NCBI RefSeq assembly: GCF_000472285.1
Contig: NZ_KI421418.1
Coordinates: forward strand, 144,525 to 178,935
Length of the DNA: 34,411 bases
From: Desulfuromonas sp. TF
Lineage (GTDB): Bacteria; Desulfobacterota; Desulfuromonadia; Desulfuromonadales; ATBO01
Direction: 5' to 3'
Shown: positions 10,166 through 15,660 of the stretch, piece after piece
How positions within the stretch are numbered: position 1 is the stretch's first letter
Layout of the letters: each line of letters starts with the position of its first letter
Notes under the pieces: model-generated
Seen by the model: only the letters and a program-made list of their open reading frames with translations
What the model was told of the DNA's origin: nothing
Databases searched by the model: none
Made by a program: the position numbers and the translations under genes

Positions 10166-10432
10166 TAAACCAGATTCCTCATTTCCCTTATCGATCTGTC
10201 GCGAAAAGCCATTGACAAATTTCAATCCTCCGTCTCAGTTCTTCCTTCTCGGGGAATGGAGCGTTTCCGGCTGCACTGAATAAGGAGGCCGCCTCTTGGT
10301 GTCGGAGCATTGGAGGCGATATTTGTTTTTGTTTTCTGAATTTGATAAAGTTCTTCCTGGCACATCCGCCTGGTCTTCGAATAAAATATCGAACCCCCTG
10401 CGTCAGGGAAAACCTGTTAGGTATCTTTTCCG
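10166..10432. other. Intergenic region between divergent genes
   Basis: Sequence upstream of the YkgJ-type gene. I see no convincing plus-strand promoter. A small CCCTG-CGT-CAGGG hairpin and an AT-rich stretch (AATAAAATATCG) lie in the last 60 bases before the start codon. No gene is supported here. Confidence 0.4.
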
Positions 10433-10696
10433 ATGAACTGTCGTTCGGGATGCGGCGCCTGCTGCATCGCACCTTCGATCTCCTCCCCTATCCCAGGGAT
10501 GCCGGGGGGCAAACCGGCCGGGGTGCGCTGCGTCCAGTTGACGCCGGAAAACCTCTGTCTGCTGTTCGAAACGGCTGAACGCCCCGCGGTCTGCCGGAGC
10601 CTGAGACCGGGCGCCGGGATGTGCGGCGGCAGCGCGGAGGAGGCGATGGAAAGGCTCGCGGCGATGGAGCGGGAGACGGAGCCCGGAGATTCATGA
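10433..10696 (+). CDS. YkgJ-family cysteine-cluster protein
   Basis: The 87-residue product begins NCRSGCGACCIAPSIS and continues with GKPAGVRC, a central LCLLFE, and RPAVCRSLRP then MCGG. This spread of eight or so conserved cysteines is the pattern of the YkgJ/UPF0153 family, thought to bind zinc or an Fe-S cluster; the function is unknown. The start ATG 10433 places the first Cys at residue 3, as usual for short members. Its stop overlaps the start of the glycosyltransferase gene by four bases (ATGA), so the two are translationally coupled. Confidence 0.85.
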   Translation: MNCRSGCGACCIAPSISSPIPGMPGGKPAGVRCVQLTPENLCLLFETAERPAVCRSLRPGAGMCGGSAEEAMERLAAMERETEPGDS

Positions 10697-11814
10697 CCAT
10701 CTCCTCTTCCCCCGAACTCTCCATCATCATACCCGTCATCAACGAGGCGGAAACCCTTCCGGCGCTTTTCACCATGCTTGCACGGCAGGATCGGGTCGAT
10801 TTCGAGATTCTGCTCGTCGACGGCGGCTCGGTGGACGGAACCCTGCCCCTGGCCGGCAAGCTTGCGGCCGAATCCCCCTTCGAATGCCGGATCGTGCGCA
10901 GCGAAAAGGGGCGCGGTCGCCAGCTCAACGCCGGGGCGAGAGCCGCGGGCACCCGGACCCTTCTCTTCCTCCATGCCGACTCCGCATTTTCCGATCCCCT
11001 GGCTCTTCGTCGCGCCCTTGATGCCCTTTCCTCGGCGATTGCCCGCCGCGGCGATGATCGGATCGCTGGTCGCTTTGCCCTGCGCTTCGACCTGCCGCCG
11101 GGACGGCGGAGATTCGGGTATTACCTTTACGAGAGCAAGGCCCGCCTCGATCGACCGGAGTGCACGCACGGGGATCAGGGAATTCTGCTCCGACGAGATT
11201 TTTTCGAGACCATCGGGCCGTTCGACGAATCCATATCCCTTCTGGAGGATACCTGTCTGGCCGAGAAGATCCGCCGAATGGGGGAATGGATTCTGCTGCC
11301 GGCCGAGATCCTGACCTCTGCCCGCCGCTTCGAAACCGAAGGTCTCTTCGAGCGGCAATTGCTCAACGCCCTGATCATGAATTTTGCCGCCATAGGCTGG
11401 GACGATTTCTTCAAGGAGACTGTCGGGATTTACCGCAGCCAGGATCATGCCCGCAAGCTTCGACTGCTCCCCTATCTGGACAAAATCAGGGAACTCCTGC
11501 GTGTCCTTCCGCGCCGGGAGCGCTGCCGTCTGTGGTACAGAACCGGCTCTTACGTGCGTCAGAACGTCTGGCAGTTCGCCTTTGCCCTCGATGCCCGGCG
11601 CAATTTCCGACGGGGCTTGCCGCCGGGAGAAGGGGGAACGGAAACCCTGGAATCCTTCGAGCGCTGGTTCCGCATCACCGATCACCCGCCGGGTCGTTTC
11701 GCTGCCGCGGTTCTGGTCTGGATCTGGTTTCATCTGACCTGGCTGTGGCGGCGCTTCCGGGAAGAGCGCCCCGCGCCGCCGCCCCATCCTCTCGCACCCG
11801 GAGAAATCGAATGA
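10693..11814 (+). CDS. Family 2 glycosyltransferase (TIGR04283-like)
   Basis: The 373-residue protein has a GT-A fold N-terminus: LSIIIPVINEAETLPAL, the nucleotide-binding DGGSVDGT, then RGRQLNAGARAA and LLFLHADS, where HAD is the metal/UDP-binding DXD-like site. GDQGILLRRDFFETIGPFDE and LLEDTCLAEKIRR match the acceptor and ED motifs. This block set resembles the TIGR04283 group, named after cyanobacterial arsenosugar clusters, but no arsM or related gene is nearby, so the substrate is unknown. The last 170 residues are extra, basic and carry one hydrophobic segment (AAAVLVWIWFHLTWLW), possibly a membrane anchor. It overlaps its neighbours by four bases on both sides. Confidence 0.85.
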   Translation: MTISSSPELSIIIPVINEAETLPALFTMLARQDRVDFEILLVDGGSVDGTLPLAGKLAAESPFECRIVRSEKGRGRQLNAGARAAGTRTLLFLHADSAFSDPLALRRALDALSSAIARRGDDRIAGRFALRFDLPPGRRRFGYYLYESKARLDRPECTHGDQGILLRRDFFETIGPFDESISLLEDTCLAEKIRRMGEWILLPAEILTSARRFETEGLFERQLLNALIMNFAAIGWDDFFKETVGIYRSQDHARKLRLLPYLDKIRELLRVLPRRERCRLWYRTGSYVRQNVWQFAFALDARRNFRRGLPPGEGGTETLESFERWFRITDHPPGRFAAAVLVWIWFHLTWLWRRFREERPAPPPHPLAPGEIE

Positions 11815-12353: not shown

Positions 12354-13088
12354 ATGAATAAAAGCGCCTTGTATTCAGCCATGATGGCCGTTTTGTTCCT
12401 CCTCCTTACTTCCTGCACTTCATATAAGAGCCAGGAAGTCCCATTTCGGCTTCCCGCGGCTGCAGCCAACATGCAGGAGGTCGCCGGCGCCCAGATTGCC
12501 GCCCAGGGTTTTGCCGATGAAGGGGAGGCTAAAAAAGTTTTCGGCTTCAATATCCGGGACGCGGGCCTGCTTCCGGTCCAGGTGGTTGTGGACAATATGG
12601 GATCTCACGGTTTGACCCTCGTTCCGGAGCAGACCTTCCTGATCGATGCACAGGGGAACTTGTGGAATCTGCTCGATCGCCGTACCGCCTACCAGCGGGT
12701 TGAGAAGAGTTCGGAATATGCGAACATCGCCAAGGGAGCGGGAAGGGGCGGGATGTTCGGTGCCGCCGGAGGCGCGCTCATCGGCGCGGCGATCGGGATT
12801 CTGACCGGTGATAACGTCGGAACGGCCGCCGCCCAGGGGGCGGCGGTCGGAGGCGCCGGCGGTGCGGTCATCGGTGGGGCGCAGTCCGCCACCTCACCGG
12901 AAGCCGGTCGGGAGATCTCCCGGGACTTGGCCAACAAAGAGCTGGAGAACCGCACCATACATCCGGGGATGCTGGGGCGCGGATTCCTGTTCTTCCCCGG
13001 CGAGGCCCCTTCGACCAACGCCGTCCGTCTGCAACTGCGTGAGGAGGATACCGGTCAGACTCATACCGTGATTCTCTCGCTTCCATAG
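12354..13088 (+). CDS. Glycine-zipper lipoprotein of unknown function
   Basis: The 244-residue product has a lipoprotein signal with lipobox LTSC (Cys near residue 21). After a soluble region of about 100 residues there is a long glycine/alanine-rich segment, residues 125-180, with repeated GxxxG spacing (GGMFGAAGGALIGAAIGILTG and later AAVGGAGGAVIGG), typical of a membrane-active glycine zipper. The C-terminal part (LGRGFLFFPGEAPSTNAVRLQLRE) is a beta-strand-like ending seen in many such hypothetical lipoproteins. It should be anchored in the outer membrane. No partner genes are evident: it stands alone and is followed by a strong terminator. Confidence 0.8.
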   Translation: MNKSALYSAMMAVLFLLLTSCTSYKSQEVPFRLPAAAANMQEVAGAQIAAQGFADEGEAKKVFGFNIRDAGLLPVQVVVDNMGSHGLTLVPEQTFLIDAQGNLWNLLDRRTAYQRVEKSSEYANIAKGAGRGGMFGAAGGALIGAAIGILTGDNVGTAAAQGAAVGGAGGAVIGGAQSATSPEAGREISRDLANKELENRTIHPGMLGRGFLFFPGEAPSTNAVRLQLREEDTGQTHTVILSLP

Positions 13089-13129
13089 TGGGATCATTTT
13101 CACATATCCCACACATTCCAGTTCTCAAG

Positions 13130-13164
13130 GGGCGGATCATAACGATCCGCCCTCTTTCTTTCTT
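13130..13164 (+). terminator. Rho-independent terminator after the lipoprotein gene
   Basis: GGGCGGATC (13130-13138) and GATCCGCCC (13144-13152) form a perfect 9-bp stem with a 5-base loop, followed by the T-rich run TCTTTCTTTCTT. Confidence 0.88.
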
Positions 13165-13231
13165 GACTCAGGGCGGTCTCCGTGTTAAATCAAGAAAACT
13201 TGATTTATTCGAACCGGATATCTTGATTTAT
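13163..13231 (+). promoter_or_regulatory. SahR-like promoter with palindromic operator
   Basis: A sigma70 promoter, TTGACT (13163-13168), 17-base spacer, TAAATC (13186-13191), has its -10 inside a palindrome: TAAATCAAG (13186-13194), AAAA, CTTGATTTA (13199-13207). A second copy of CTTGATTTAT at 13222-13231 repeats that at 13199-13208, 23 bases downstream, and overlaps the start codon of the regulator. The layout fits autorepression by the ArsR-type protein encoded immediately downstream. Confidence 0.7.
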
Positions 13232-14150
13232 GTTGGAAATCATCAAAGCCCTCGCCGATCCCAGTCGCCTGCGTCTGGTGGCGGTCCTCACGCGCGGTGA
13301 ATTTACCGTGCAGGATCTGACGGCGATTCTCGGCATGGGACAGTCGCGGATATCGCGGCATCTCAAAATCCTGACCGATGCCGGAATCCTTGCCGTCCAG
13401 AGGCAGGGGACCTGGGCCTACTACCGCCTGGCGGGAGAGAATCTTTTCTTCACCGCCATCCGACCGGCACTGGAAGAGCGCCTGTCCGAACTACCAGAGC
13501 GCCCGGCCGATCTCGAAGGGATTGGGCGGGTCATGGAGGCGCGCAGAAAGCGCAGCCAGGAGTTCTTCGATCGCCACGCCCGGCAATGGGATTCCCTGGC
13601 CCGCGAGGTGCTGTCGACGGCCGACTACCTCGACCGTCTGCTCGAGTCCGTCCCCTCCTGCGCGACCATCCTCGAGGTCGGGCTGGGAACCGGGGGGCTG
13701 CTCGCAAAGCTGCGCGAGCGGGCGGAGTGGGTCATCGGAGTGGACCACTCCCCGGCCATGATCGAGGAGGCGTGGAGGCGCGTGGCCGCGGAGGGGCTGT
13801 CCGGAGTGGATCTGCGGCTCGGGGAGATGTCGCACCTCCCCCTTCCGGATGGTGAATGCGACATGGCCCTCCTCAACATGGTGCTGCACCATGCGGCGCG
13901 CCCCCTGGAGGTCCTCAACGAGTTGAACCGTGTGCTTTCCAGCCGCGGATCCCTGCTGATCGCCGATCTCGTGGCGCACCGGAGCGACTGGGTGCGGGAG
14001 AGCCTGGCCGACCAGTGGCTGGGGTTCGAGGCCGATGAACTTTCGAGCTGGCTCGCCGCCGCGGGATTTGCCGTGCAGGAGCACTCGGTGGTGGAAGAAG
14101 AAGGCGAGGCGCTGGGGGTTTTCATCCTTCGGGCACGAAAGATCGCCTGA
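13230..14150 (+). CDS. sahR: SahR-like ArsR-family regulator fused to a SAM-methyltransferase-like domain
   Basis: The 306-residue protein has an ArsR winged helix in residues 1-75 (ALADPSRLRLVAVL, then MGQSRISRHLKIL as recognition helix and RQGTWAYYRL as wing). Residues 105-300 form a class I methyltransferase domain with ILEVGLGTG, GVDHSPAMIEEA and LLNMVLHHA. The gene directly precedes ahcY. This architecture and location match SahR, shown in Desulfovibrio alaskensis to repress SAM-cycle genes and to release DNA when it binds S-adenosylhomocysteine. The methyltransferase fold would then be the SAH sensor rather than an enzyme. No Shine-Dalgarno is visible before ATG 13230, because operator sequence fills that space. 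The gene symbol rests on architecture and context. Confidence 0.85.
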   Translation: MLEIIKALADPSRLRLVAVLTRGEFTVQDLTAILGMGQSRISRHLKILTDAGILAVQRQGTWAYYRLAGENLFFTAIRPALEERLSELPERPADLEGIGRVMEARRKRSQEFFDRHARQWDSLAREVLSTADYLDRLLESVPSCATILEVGLGTGGLLAKLRERAEWVIGVDHSPAMIEEAWRRVAAEGLSGVDLRLGEMSHLPLPDGECDMALLNMVLHHAARPLEVLNELNRVLSSRGSLLIADLVAHRSDWVRESLADQWLGFEADELSSWLAAAGFAVQEHSVVEEEGEALGVFILRARKIA

Positions 14151-14211
14151 ATCCTCTGAATTTTTGCGAAGGTATCATTCATCAAACTGAAAAAAGGAAA
14201 GGAAAAGCCGG

Positions 14212-15660
14212 ATGAACGACTTTAAAGTGAAAGATCTTTCCCTTGCCAAGCTGGGACGGAAGGAAATCGAGCTGGCCGAGGTGGAAATGCCGGGCCTGAT
14301 GGCGCTGCGCGAGGAATTCGGAGCCCGTCAGCCCCTCAAGGGAGCACGGATCACCGGTTCCCTGCACATGACCATCCAGACGGCGGTGCTGATTGAAACT
14401 CTGACCACGCTTGGCGCCGAGGTCCGGTGGGCCTCCTGCAACATCTTTTCGACCCAGGACCAGGCGGCAGCCGCCGTCGCCGTCGGCAAGGACGGTACGC
14501 CGCAGGACCCCAAAGGGGTGCCGGTATTCGCCTGGAAGGGGGAGACGCTGGCCGAATACTGGTGGTGCACCGAGCAGGCTCTCACGTGGCCGGAGGGTAA
14601 ACTCCCCAACATGATCCTCGACGACGGCGGCGATGCGACCATGATGGTTCTCGAGGGGGCGAAATGGCAGAAGGACGGGGTTCCTGCAGTCACCGAGGAT
14701 GACCCCGAGGATTTGATCGAACTGGTCAGGTGTCTGAAGGACTCCATTTCGGCCGGGCGCAATGACTGGACAGCCATCCGCGACTCCATCAAGGGGGTCA
14801 CCGAGGAGACGACCACGGGGGTGCATCGCCTCTATCAACTGCAGAGGGCGGGACAACTGCCTTTTGCGGCCATGAACGTCAACGATTCGGTAACCAAGAG
14901 CAAGTTCGACAATGTTTACGGATGTCGTCACAGCCTGGTCGACGGAATCATGCGTGCCACGGATGTCATGCTCTCCGGAAAGGTCGCGGTGGTCTGCGGA
15001 TACGGCGATGTCGGCAAAGGATGCTGTCAGTCCCTGCGCGGCCAGGGAGCCCGGGTCATCGTCACGGAAATCGACCCGATCTGCGCCCTGCAGGCGTTGA
15101 TGGAGGGATATGAGGTCAAGACTCTCGAGGATGTGGTCGAGGAAGGAGACATCTTCATCACCACCACCGGGAACAAGGACGTCATCCGGGTGGAACATAT
15201 GACCAGGATGAAGCACCATGCCATCGTCGGCAATATCGGGCACTTCGACAATGAAATCGAAATAGCCGCACTCGCAAAGGTGGCGGGGATCAGGAAGATC
15301 AACATCAAGAACCCCCAGGAGCACGGCAACCAGGTCGATCAGTGGATCTTTCCCGACGGCCACGCCATCATCGTTCTGGCCGAAGGACGCCTGCTCAATC
15401 TCGGCTGCGCCACCGGTCACCCATCTTTCGTCATGTCGAACAGTTTCAGCAATCAGGTCATCGCCCAGATTGAGCTGTTCAACAACTCCGGAGAATATGA
15501 CAAGGCCGTCTATGTCCTGCCCAAGCACCTTGACGAGAAGGTGGCCCGCCTCCATCTCGACAAACTAGGAGCGAAGCTGACCGTGTTGCGCCAGGATCAG
15601 GCCGAGTACCTGGGAGTGCCGGTCGAGGGCCCCTTCAAGTCGGATCATTACCGCTATTGA
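14212..15660 (+). CDS. ahcY: Adenosylhomocysteinase
   Basis: The 482-residue protein hydrolyses S-adenosylhomocysteine to adenosine and homocysteine, closing the SAM cycle. Visible signatures are [16 protein letters not shown] and [16 protein letters not shown] near the N-terminus, [19 protein letters not shown] around the catalytic Lys/Asp, the NAD-binding GYGDVGKGC, and the C-terminal KSDHYRY whose Lys and Tyr close the NAD site. Length is normal for the bacterial type with the extra loop. The ATG follows an AAGGAAAGGA site. It lies 61 bases behind the SahR-like gene with no terminator or SAH riboswitch fold visible in the gap, so both are probably one transcription unit under the operator at 13186-13231. 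Confidence 0.97.

Follow-up and report, generated by a model that had tools for sequence, protein, structure and literature searches.

The closest described counterpart of the control region analyzed here is SahR; SahR proteins in general carry a methyltransferase-like domain, as the length of the Ensifer gene supports. SahR belongs to the ArsR family, responds to S-adenosylhomocysteine (SAH) and regulates SAM-cycle genes in alpha-, delta- and some gamma-proteobacteria; the Desulfuromonadales are among its published lineages (6 of 9 genomes). Its published site is a 20-bp palindrome with the common core ATC-N10-GAT, and its core regulon includes metH, metF and metK (PMC4239095). The described protein responds to SAH (PMC4239095; PMC8877191), and the Ensifer sahR gene, at 1023 bp, has a length consistent with the two-domain build of the 306-aa regulator considered below (PMC8877191). 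SamR of the Xanthomonadales is likewise an ArsR-type methionine regulator with an ATC-N10-GAT core, but its motif is 24 bp long and it is linked to metH1/metH2 (PMC4239095), in place of the ahcY linkage found here. The SmtB/ArsR metal repressors bind as winged-helix dimers to operators near or over the transcription start (PMC4486848), a geometry also predicted for the present locus; unlike the present regulator, they are without a methyltransferase domain, and their ligand is a metal and not a nucleoside. SAH riboswitches in ahcY leaders place the same gene under the same metabolite, but they are RNA elements, and none was detected upstream of ahcY here, where Rfam covariance models gave chance-level matches alone, far below gathering scores.

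The window (the whole stretch of DNA that was analyzed, 34,411 nucleotides from Desulfuromonas sp. TF) resembles the SahR systems in having an ArsR-family regulator beside ahcY, with an ATC-N10-GAT palindrome placed as an autoregulatory site. It departs from them in two respects: the published motif is a single palindrome, whereas here there are tandem sites at 23-bp pitch, and a strong site is found solely at the regulator's own promoter, whereas the published core regulon extends to metH, metF and metK. Its domains, operator core, gene order and lineage all assign the regulator to SahR. Most probably, a SahR-type operon, sahR-ahcY, is controlled here by its own regulator through a tandem operator for two dimers, with repression that is released by SAH. 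The features of the region are collected in Table 1.

Table 1. Features of the predicted sahR-ahcY control region and operon (window coordinates)
Feature	Position	Strand	Basis
Intrinsic terminator of the upstream gene, directly 5' of the promoter	13129..13153	+	Stem and fold
-35 box TTGACT	13163..13168	+	Sequence; TTG conserved
Extended -10 TGtTAAATC, hexamer = left end of O1	13183..13191	+	Sequence, conservation
Operator O1, core ATC-N10-GAT	13186..13207	.	Pattern search; O1 relatives in ortholog promoters
Operator O2 (putative), TCGAACCGG-ATAT-CTTGATTTA	13209..13230	.	Conserved pitch; left-half core above shuffles
sahR-type regulator, 306 aa, ArsR winged helix and class I methyltransferase domain	13230..14150	+	Pfam, model, fold
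Recognition-helix residues 38-44, QSRISRH codons	13341..13361	+	Covariation of residues 40 and 43 with the inner bases of the half-site
Methyltransferase motif I EVGLGTG, residues 149-155, SAM/SAH-binding loop	13674..13694	+	Ortholog conservation
ahcY, S-adenosylhomocysteine hydrolase, operon gene 2	14212..15660	+	TIGR00936 623 bits, cut-off 498

The regulator, its operon and its orthologs

The regulator matches HTH_5 (46 bits, cut-off 22) and NF033788 (88.5 bits, cut-off 55), and its C-terminal domain matches Methyltransf_11 (Pfam, 75 bits). An AlphaFold model has a mean pLDDT of 90.8; its methyltransferase domain resembles SAH-bound methyltransferases with Z about 22 (3ofk: Z 22.7, rmsd 2.5, 189 residues aligned), and the matches listed by the fold search are taken up by this domain and bear on it, not on the winged helix. 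Motif I is present in 102/103 orthologs; G151, G153 and G155 are invariant. The ahcY gene lies ~60 bp 3' of the regulator on the same strand and has a Shine-Dalgarno sequence, GGAAAGGA, at 14196-14203. The initial annotation had proposed a SahR-type ArsR-methyltransferase regulator upstream of ahcY, and domains, operator core and gene order all agree with it.

For comparison, 80 related loci were collected, and further loci were added by whole-genome search. Because the orthologs are related, counts are also given after thinning (removal of sequences at least 65% alike over 85 bases, leaving 53), which corrects only partly for kinship. Nine of 20 extra divergent loci, unparsed by the helix finder, were left out. 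A relative of O1 precedes the start in 103/104 same-class ortholog loci, and ahcY lies 3' of the regulator in 101/104. Orthologs of the same phylum that stand beside ahcY at ~40-44% identity also carry ATC-N10-GAT sites (the SahR of Desulfovibrio alaskensis itself is outside this comparison).

Within the class the regulator is patchy, being found in 146/277 genomes. Four regulator genes, one of them from Geotalea toluenoxydans, have an apparent frameshift or in-frame stop (L078, G010, G475, G547), from either sequencing error or decay. Elsewhere in the window, the gene just upstream of the control region (12354-13088, + strand) encodes a protein of 244 aa that weakly matches a glycine zipper (YiaD-like lipoprotein), and a 456-aa open frame (10417-11787, - strand) that lies opposite smaller ORFs has no Pfam or NCBIfam match and may be non-genic.

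Operator O1 and the promoter

O1 is a perfect 9-4-9 palindrome, TAAATCAAG-AAAA-CTTGATTTA, with zero mismatches. In pattern searches, by which all genome motif counts were made, it is the sole match at up to 3 mismatches within the window, where shuffles expect 0, and the single such match across the 4.40-Mb genome (4,402,753 bases). Its core at 13189-13204, ATC-AAGAAAACTT-GAT, is an exact fit to the published SahR core. The 12-base core alone has no other exact match in the genome, and the next-best sites for it, with 1 mismatch, fall outside the located met loci.

The palindrome is built into the promoter. A 17-bp gap separates TTGACT from the hexamer TAAATC (13186-13191), which O1 contains as its left end, as had been proposed, and TGn precedes the hexamer (TGTTAAATC), making an extended -10. 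The TTG of the -35 box is kept in 52/53 thinned orthologs, with a spacer of mostly 17 or 18 bp, and the TG of the extended -10 in 44/53; the hexamer, as TATATC or TAAATC, is near invariant. Column by column, in 31 thinned sequences, O1 is nearly invariant, including its 4 central A bases, and the -35 TTG and extended -10 TG are conserved while the spacer varies. A generic promoter scan omits this promoter because its -10 hexamer is a poor consensus match. The terminator directly 5' of it consists of a 10-bp stem followed by CTTTCTTTCT (fold -20 kcal/mol, z -6.1).

A putative second operator at the start codon

The half-site CTTGATTTA recurs at 13222-13230, so that CTTGATTTAT occupies 13222-13231 and the ATG at 13230 begins with the last A of the half-site. 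The pitch from the right half of O1 to this third half-site is 23 bp, with 14 bp free between them; the 23 bases that the initial annotation gave as the distance to a further half-site on the ATG are thus the pitch. With a degenerate fourth half-site at 13209-13217 (TCGAACCGG), which gives an AAC-N10-GAT core one base off, the third half-site completes a second 22-bp site, the putative operator O2, which starts 1 bp beyond O1.

Between the GAT core of the third half-site and that of the right half of O1 the distance is exactly 23 bp in 93/103 orthologs (44/53 after thinning), and any other spacing occurs in at most 15/103. Relative to the start codon, the third half-site sits anywhere from -5 to +9; in most orthologs it touches or overlaps that codon, and overlap with the ATG is one of several arrangements. 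Because the pitch to O1 is fixed while the distance to the start codon varies, the third half-site is positioned relative to O1, the behavior expected of a DNA-binding site, rather than relative to the translation start. The comparison supports selection on this half-site as an operator component held at a constant 23-bp pitch.

Less clear-cut is the left half of O2, which is poor in this genome (half-site score -11.5, against +14.3). A test with the O1 weight matrix was ambiguous, offset 24 scoring the same as 23, and a core-triplet test was relied on in its place. At least 2 of the 3 ATC bases are kept in 22/44 orthologs with 10 bases between ATC and GAT and in 25/44 in the 9-base register, where shuffles give 7.6 +/- 2.5; the best register is divided between the two. 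Full-dimer occupancy of O2 in this genome is not certain, because its left half is poor here and the register is split among relatives. The proposal of three half-sites for two dimers holds for the room available and the 23-bp pitch, and is weakened by a second dimer site that is half-degenerate here.

More distant relatives give a fuller picture. One distant family within the phylum (~40-44% identity, ahcY adjacent) has two full ATC-N10-GAT sites at 22-bp pitch, exact in 4 genomes and with one mismatch in 2 more, and two further relatives (L180 and L179) have two exact sites at 22- or 24-bp pitch. Another locus (L153, helix QSTISHH) has three ATC-N10-GAT-like sites at exact 23-bp pitch between -57 and +5 relative to the start; two are imperfect, the inner bases of the middle one are CGG, and the last overlaps the start codon (ATGATT). 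Because these distant relatives and L153 carry them, adjacent full sites look like a property of the family, of which the version in the Desulfuromonadia looks like one with three of four half-sites kept strong. Taken together, the tandem operator is genuine and conserved, and it belongs to an already known family of regulators, whose binding to it is predicted. Tandem dimer sites are known for SmtB.

Other layouts occur as well. In two loci (L161 and L162) the 100 bases upstream of the regulator hold a very long near-perfect palindrome (CCATATAATCCACATATCAA-GATATA-TTGATATGTGGATTATATGG in L161), with a -10 TATAAT at its left and the mirror copy at the start codon. Two others with the helix QPLVSHH (L154 and L178) lack the usual half-site upstream of the regulator and have a different long palindrome (ATAAACCAAAATT...AATTTTGGTTTATG in L154) that again ends on the start codon. 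Orthologs from Verrucomicrobia/Kiritimatiellae (L081-L090) have a palindrome of the type TATATCCG...CGGATATA that extends into the start codon, and ahcY lies downstream; this points to possible SahR-like control outside the phyla where SahR was described.

Covariation of the recognition helix and the half-site

With the helix QSR[IV]SRH (R43), an inner G (AAG or AGG) is found in 79/93 left half-sites, and with H or W at residue 43 in 0/9 (Fisher p 3.6e-7). In the thinned set the counts are 36/45 and 0/6 (p 2.8e-4); both p-values are inflated by the relatedness of the sequences. The half-site is ATCGG or ATCCG in a similar frame, an inner CG replacing AA or AG, where residue 40 is T in place of R (L153 and the Verrucomicrobia/Kiritimatiellae orthologs). 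Helix and inner half-site bases thus change together, which links the regulator to this operator.

The literature searched, the original SahR paper and supplementary motif figures aside, contains no description of the tandem layout or of the helix-operator covariation. The regulator type is already known; the two-part operator layout is provisionally new.

Translation start

The initial annotation noted that the regulator has no Shine-Dalgarno sequence, and this is real and conserved. The best anti-Shine-Dalgarno pairing at its start is -3.3 kcal/mol, vs -5.6 for ahcY; among orthologs the mean best pairing is -3.4 kcal/mol, whereas random coding positions give -4.9 and ahcY gives -7.1. O2 fills the position where the Shine-Dalgarno would lie. 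Translation may be unusual, and less regulator than AhcY is likely to be made from such a start. A leaderless mRNA arising from the TATCTT box at 13219-13224, with its start at the ATG, was considered and dropped because a -35 is missing at the right distance, whereas TTG-17-TGnTATATC is conserved.

Regulon

Regulon content differs within SahR. A scan for the palindrome near metF, metH and metK, as the initial annotation had suggested, turned up no strong copy at these loci of this genome in pattern and score searches; the only one is at the regulator's own promoter. The best candidate upstream of metK, TATATCCAAAATATTTGACAAC, scored below 0 bits and was rejected, and a second weak match, on contig C13, lies in a stretch with no link to a methionine gene. 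Among 58 genomes of the order, most sites (up to 2 mismatches) in those that bear sahR are at the regulator's own promoter, and sites away from sahR are about as common as matches to a reversed control pattern. Because sites elsewhere are at the level of the control and none is at metF, metH or metK, a one-operon regulon is suggested for this order, judged on strong sites.

Proposed mechanism and alternatives

A dimer of the ArsR-methyltransferase protein would bind O1 and block RNA polymerase, with which it would have to compete because O1 covers the -10 hexamer. A second dimer, aided by the first, would take the adjacent O2, whose strong half is on the start codon. Since O2 starts 1 bp beyond O1, the two dimers would be neighbors on the DNA, separated by about two helical turns, and occupancy of both would give tighter repression over ~45 bp; cooperative binding would be the simplest reason for the fixed pitch. 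When SAH builds up it would fill the methyltransferase-like pocket and the protein would leave the DNA, and the regulator and SAH hydrolase would then be made until SAH is gone. The absence of a Shine-Dalgarno would keep the regulator scarce relative to AhcY. The regulator probably senses SAH as its inducer, because the described SahR responds to it and the linkage to ahcY is strict.

The same operator and repressor could instead answer to SAM or to the SAM/SAH ratio, or the methyltransferase domain could also be enzymatic. The complete class I motif I and the resemblance of the domain to active methyltransferases would fit such a role, and the effector of the related SamR has been left open (PMC4239095). 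We consider this unlikely, since the strict ahcY linkage and the SAH response of the described SahR (PMC4239095; PMC8877191) speak against it. Somewhat less probable still is that O1 is the only operator and that the third half-site is an A/T-rich aid to a start that has no Shine-Dalgarno, its likeness to a half-site being accidental or a relic. The contact with the start codon in most orthologs and the degenerate fourth half-site here would be expected on that account, but the half-site retains a GAT core and not generic A/T, it keeps its pitch to O1 while its spacing to the start codon drifts, and distant relatives have two full sites at 22 bp that lie away from the start codon.

That the inverted repeat works as RNA, as an attenuator hairpin or riboswitch in the leader, is barely credible. 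A transcript of the repeat could fold into a 9-bp hairpin, but the left arm of the repeat is the -10 box and should lie outside the transcript; the leader predicted to begin at 13199 shows no better folding than shuffled sequences (z +1.4), Rfam yields no match above chance, and relatives mutate the two arms unequally, e.g., left CAAG vs right GTTG. A tandem operator acting on DNA, with repression released by SAH, remains the reading that we prefer.

Implications

Tentatively, and with rather less confidence than in the operon itself, SahR of the Desulfuromonadia may be viewed as an SAH sensor devoted to one operon, its tandem operator taking two dimers and extending from the -10 box as far as the start codon. 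Residues 40 and 43 of the recognition helix would set its DNA specificity, which would have changed several times in step with the half-sites, the promoter layout staying the same. This gives a testable rule, namely that SahR operators in this class are tandem sites at a fixed pitch; a regulon scan that uses one 20-bp palindrome as its query would overlook the second site. The covariation would amount to a small recognition code, open to direct test, for ArsR proteins that use a methyltransferase-like domain to sense a small metabolite.
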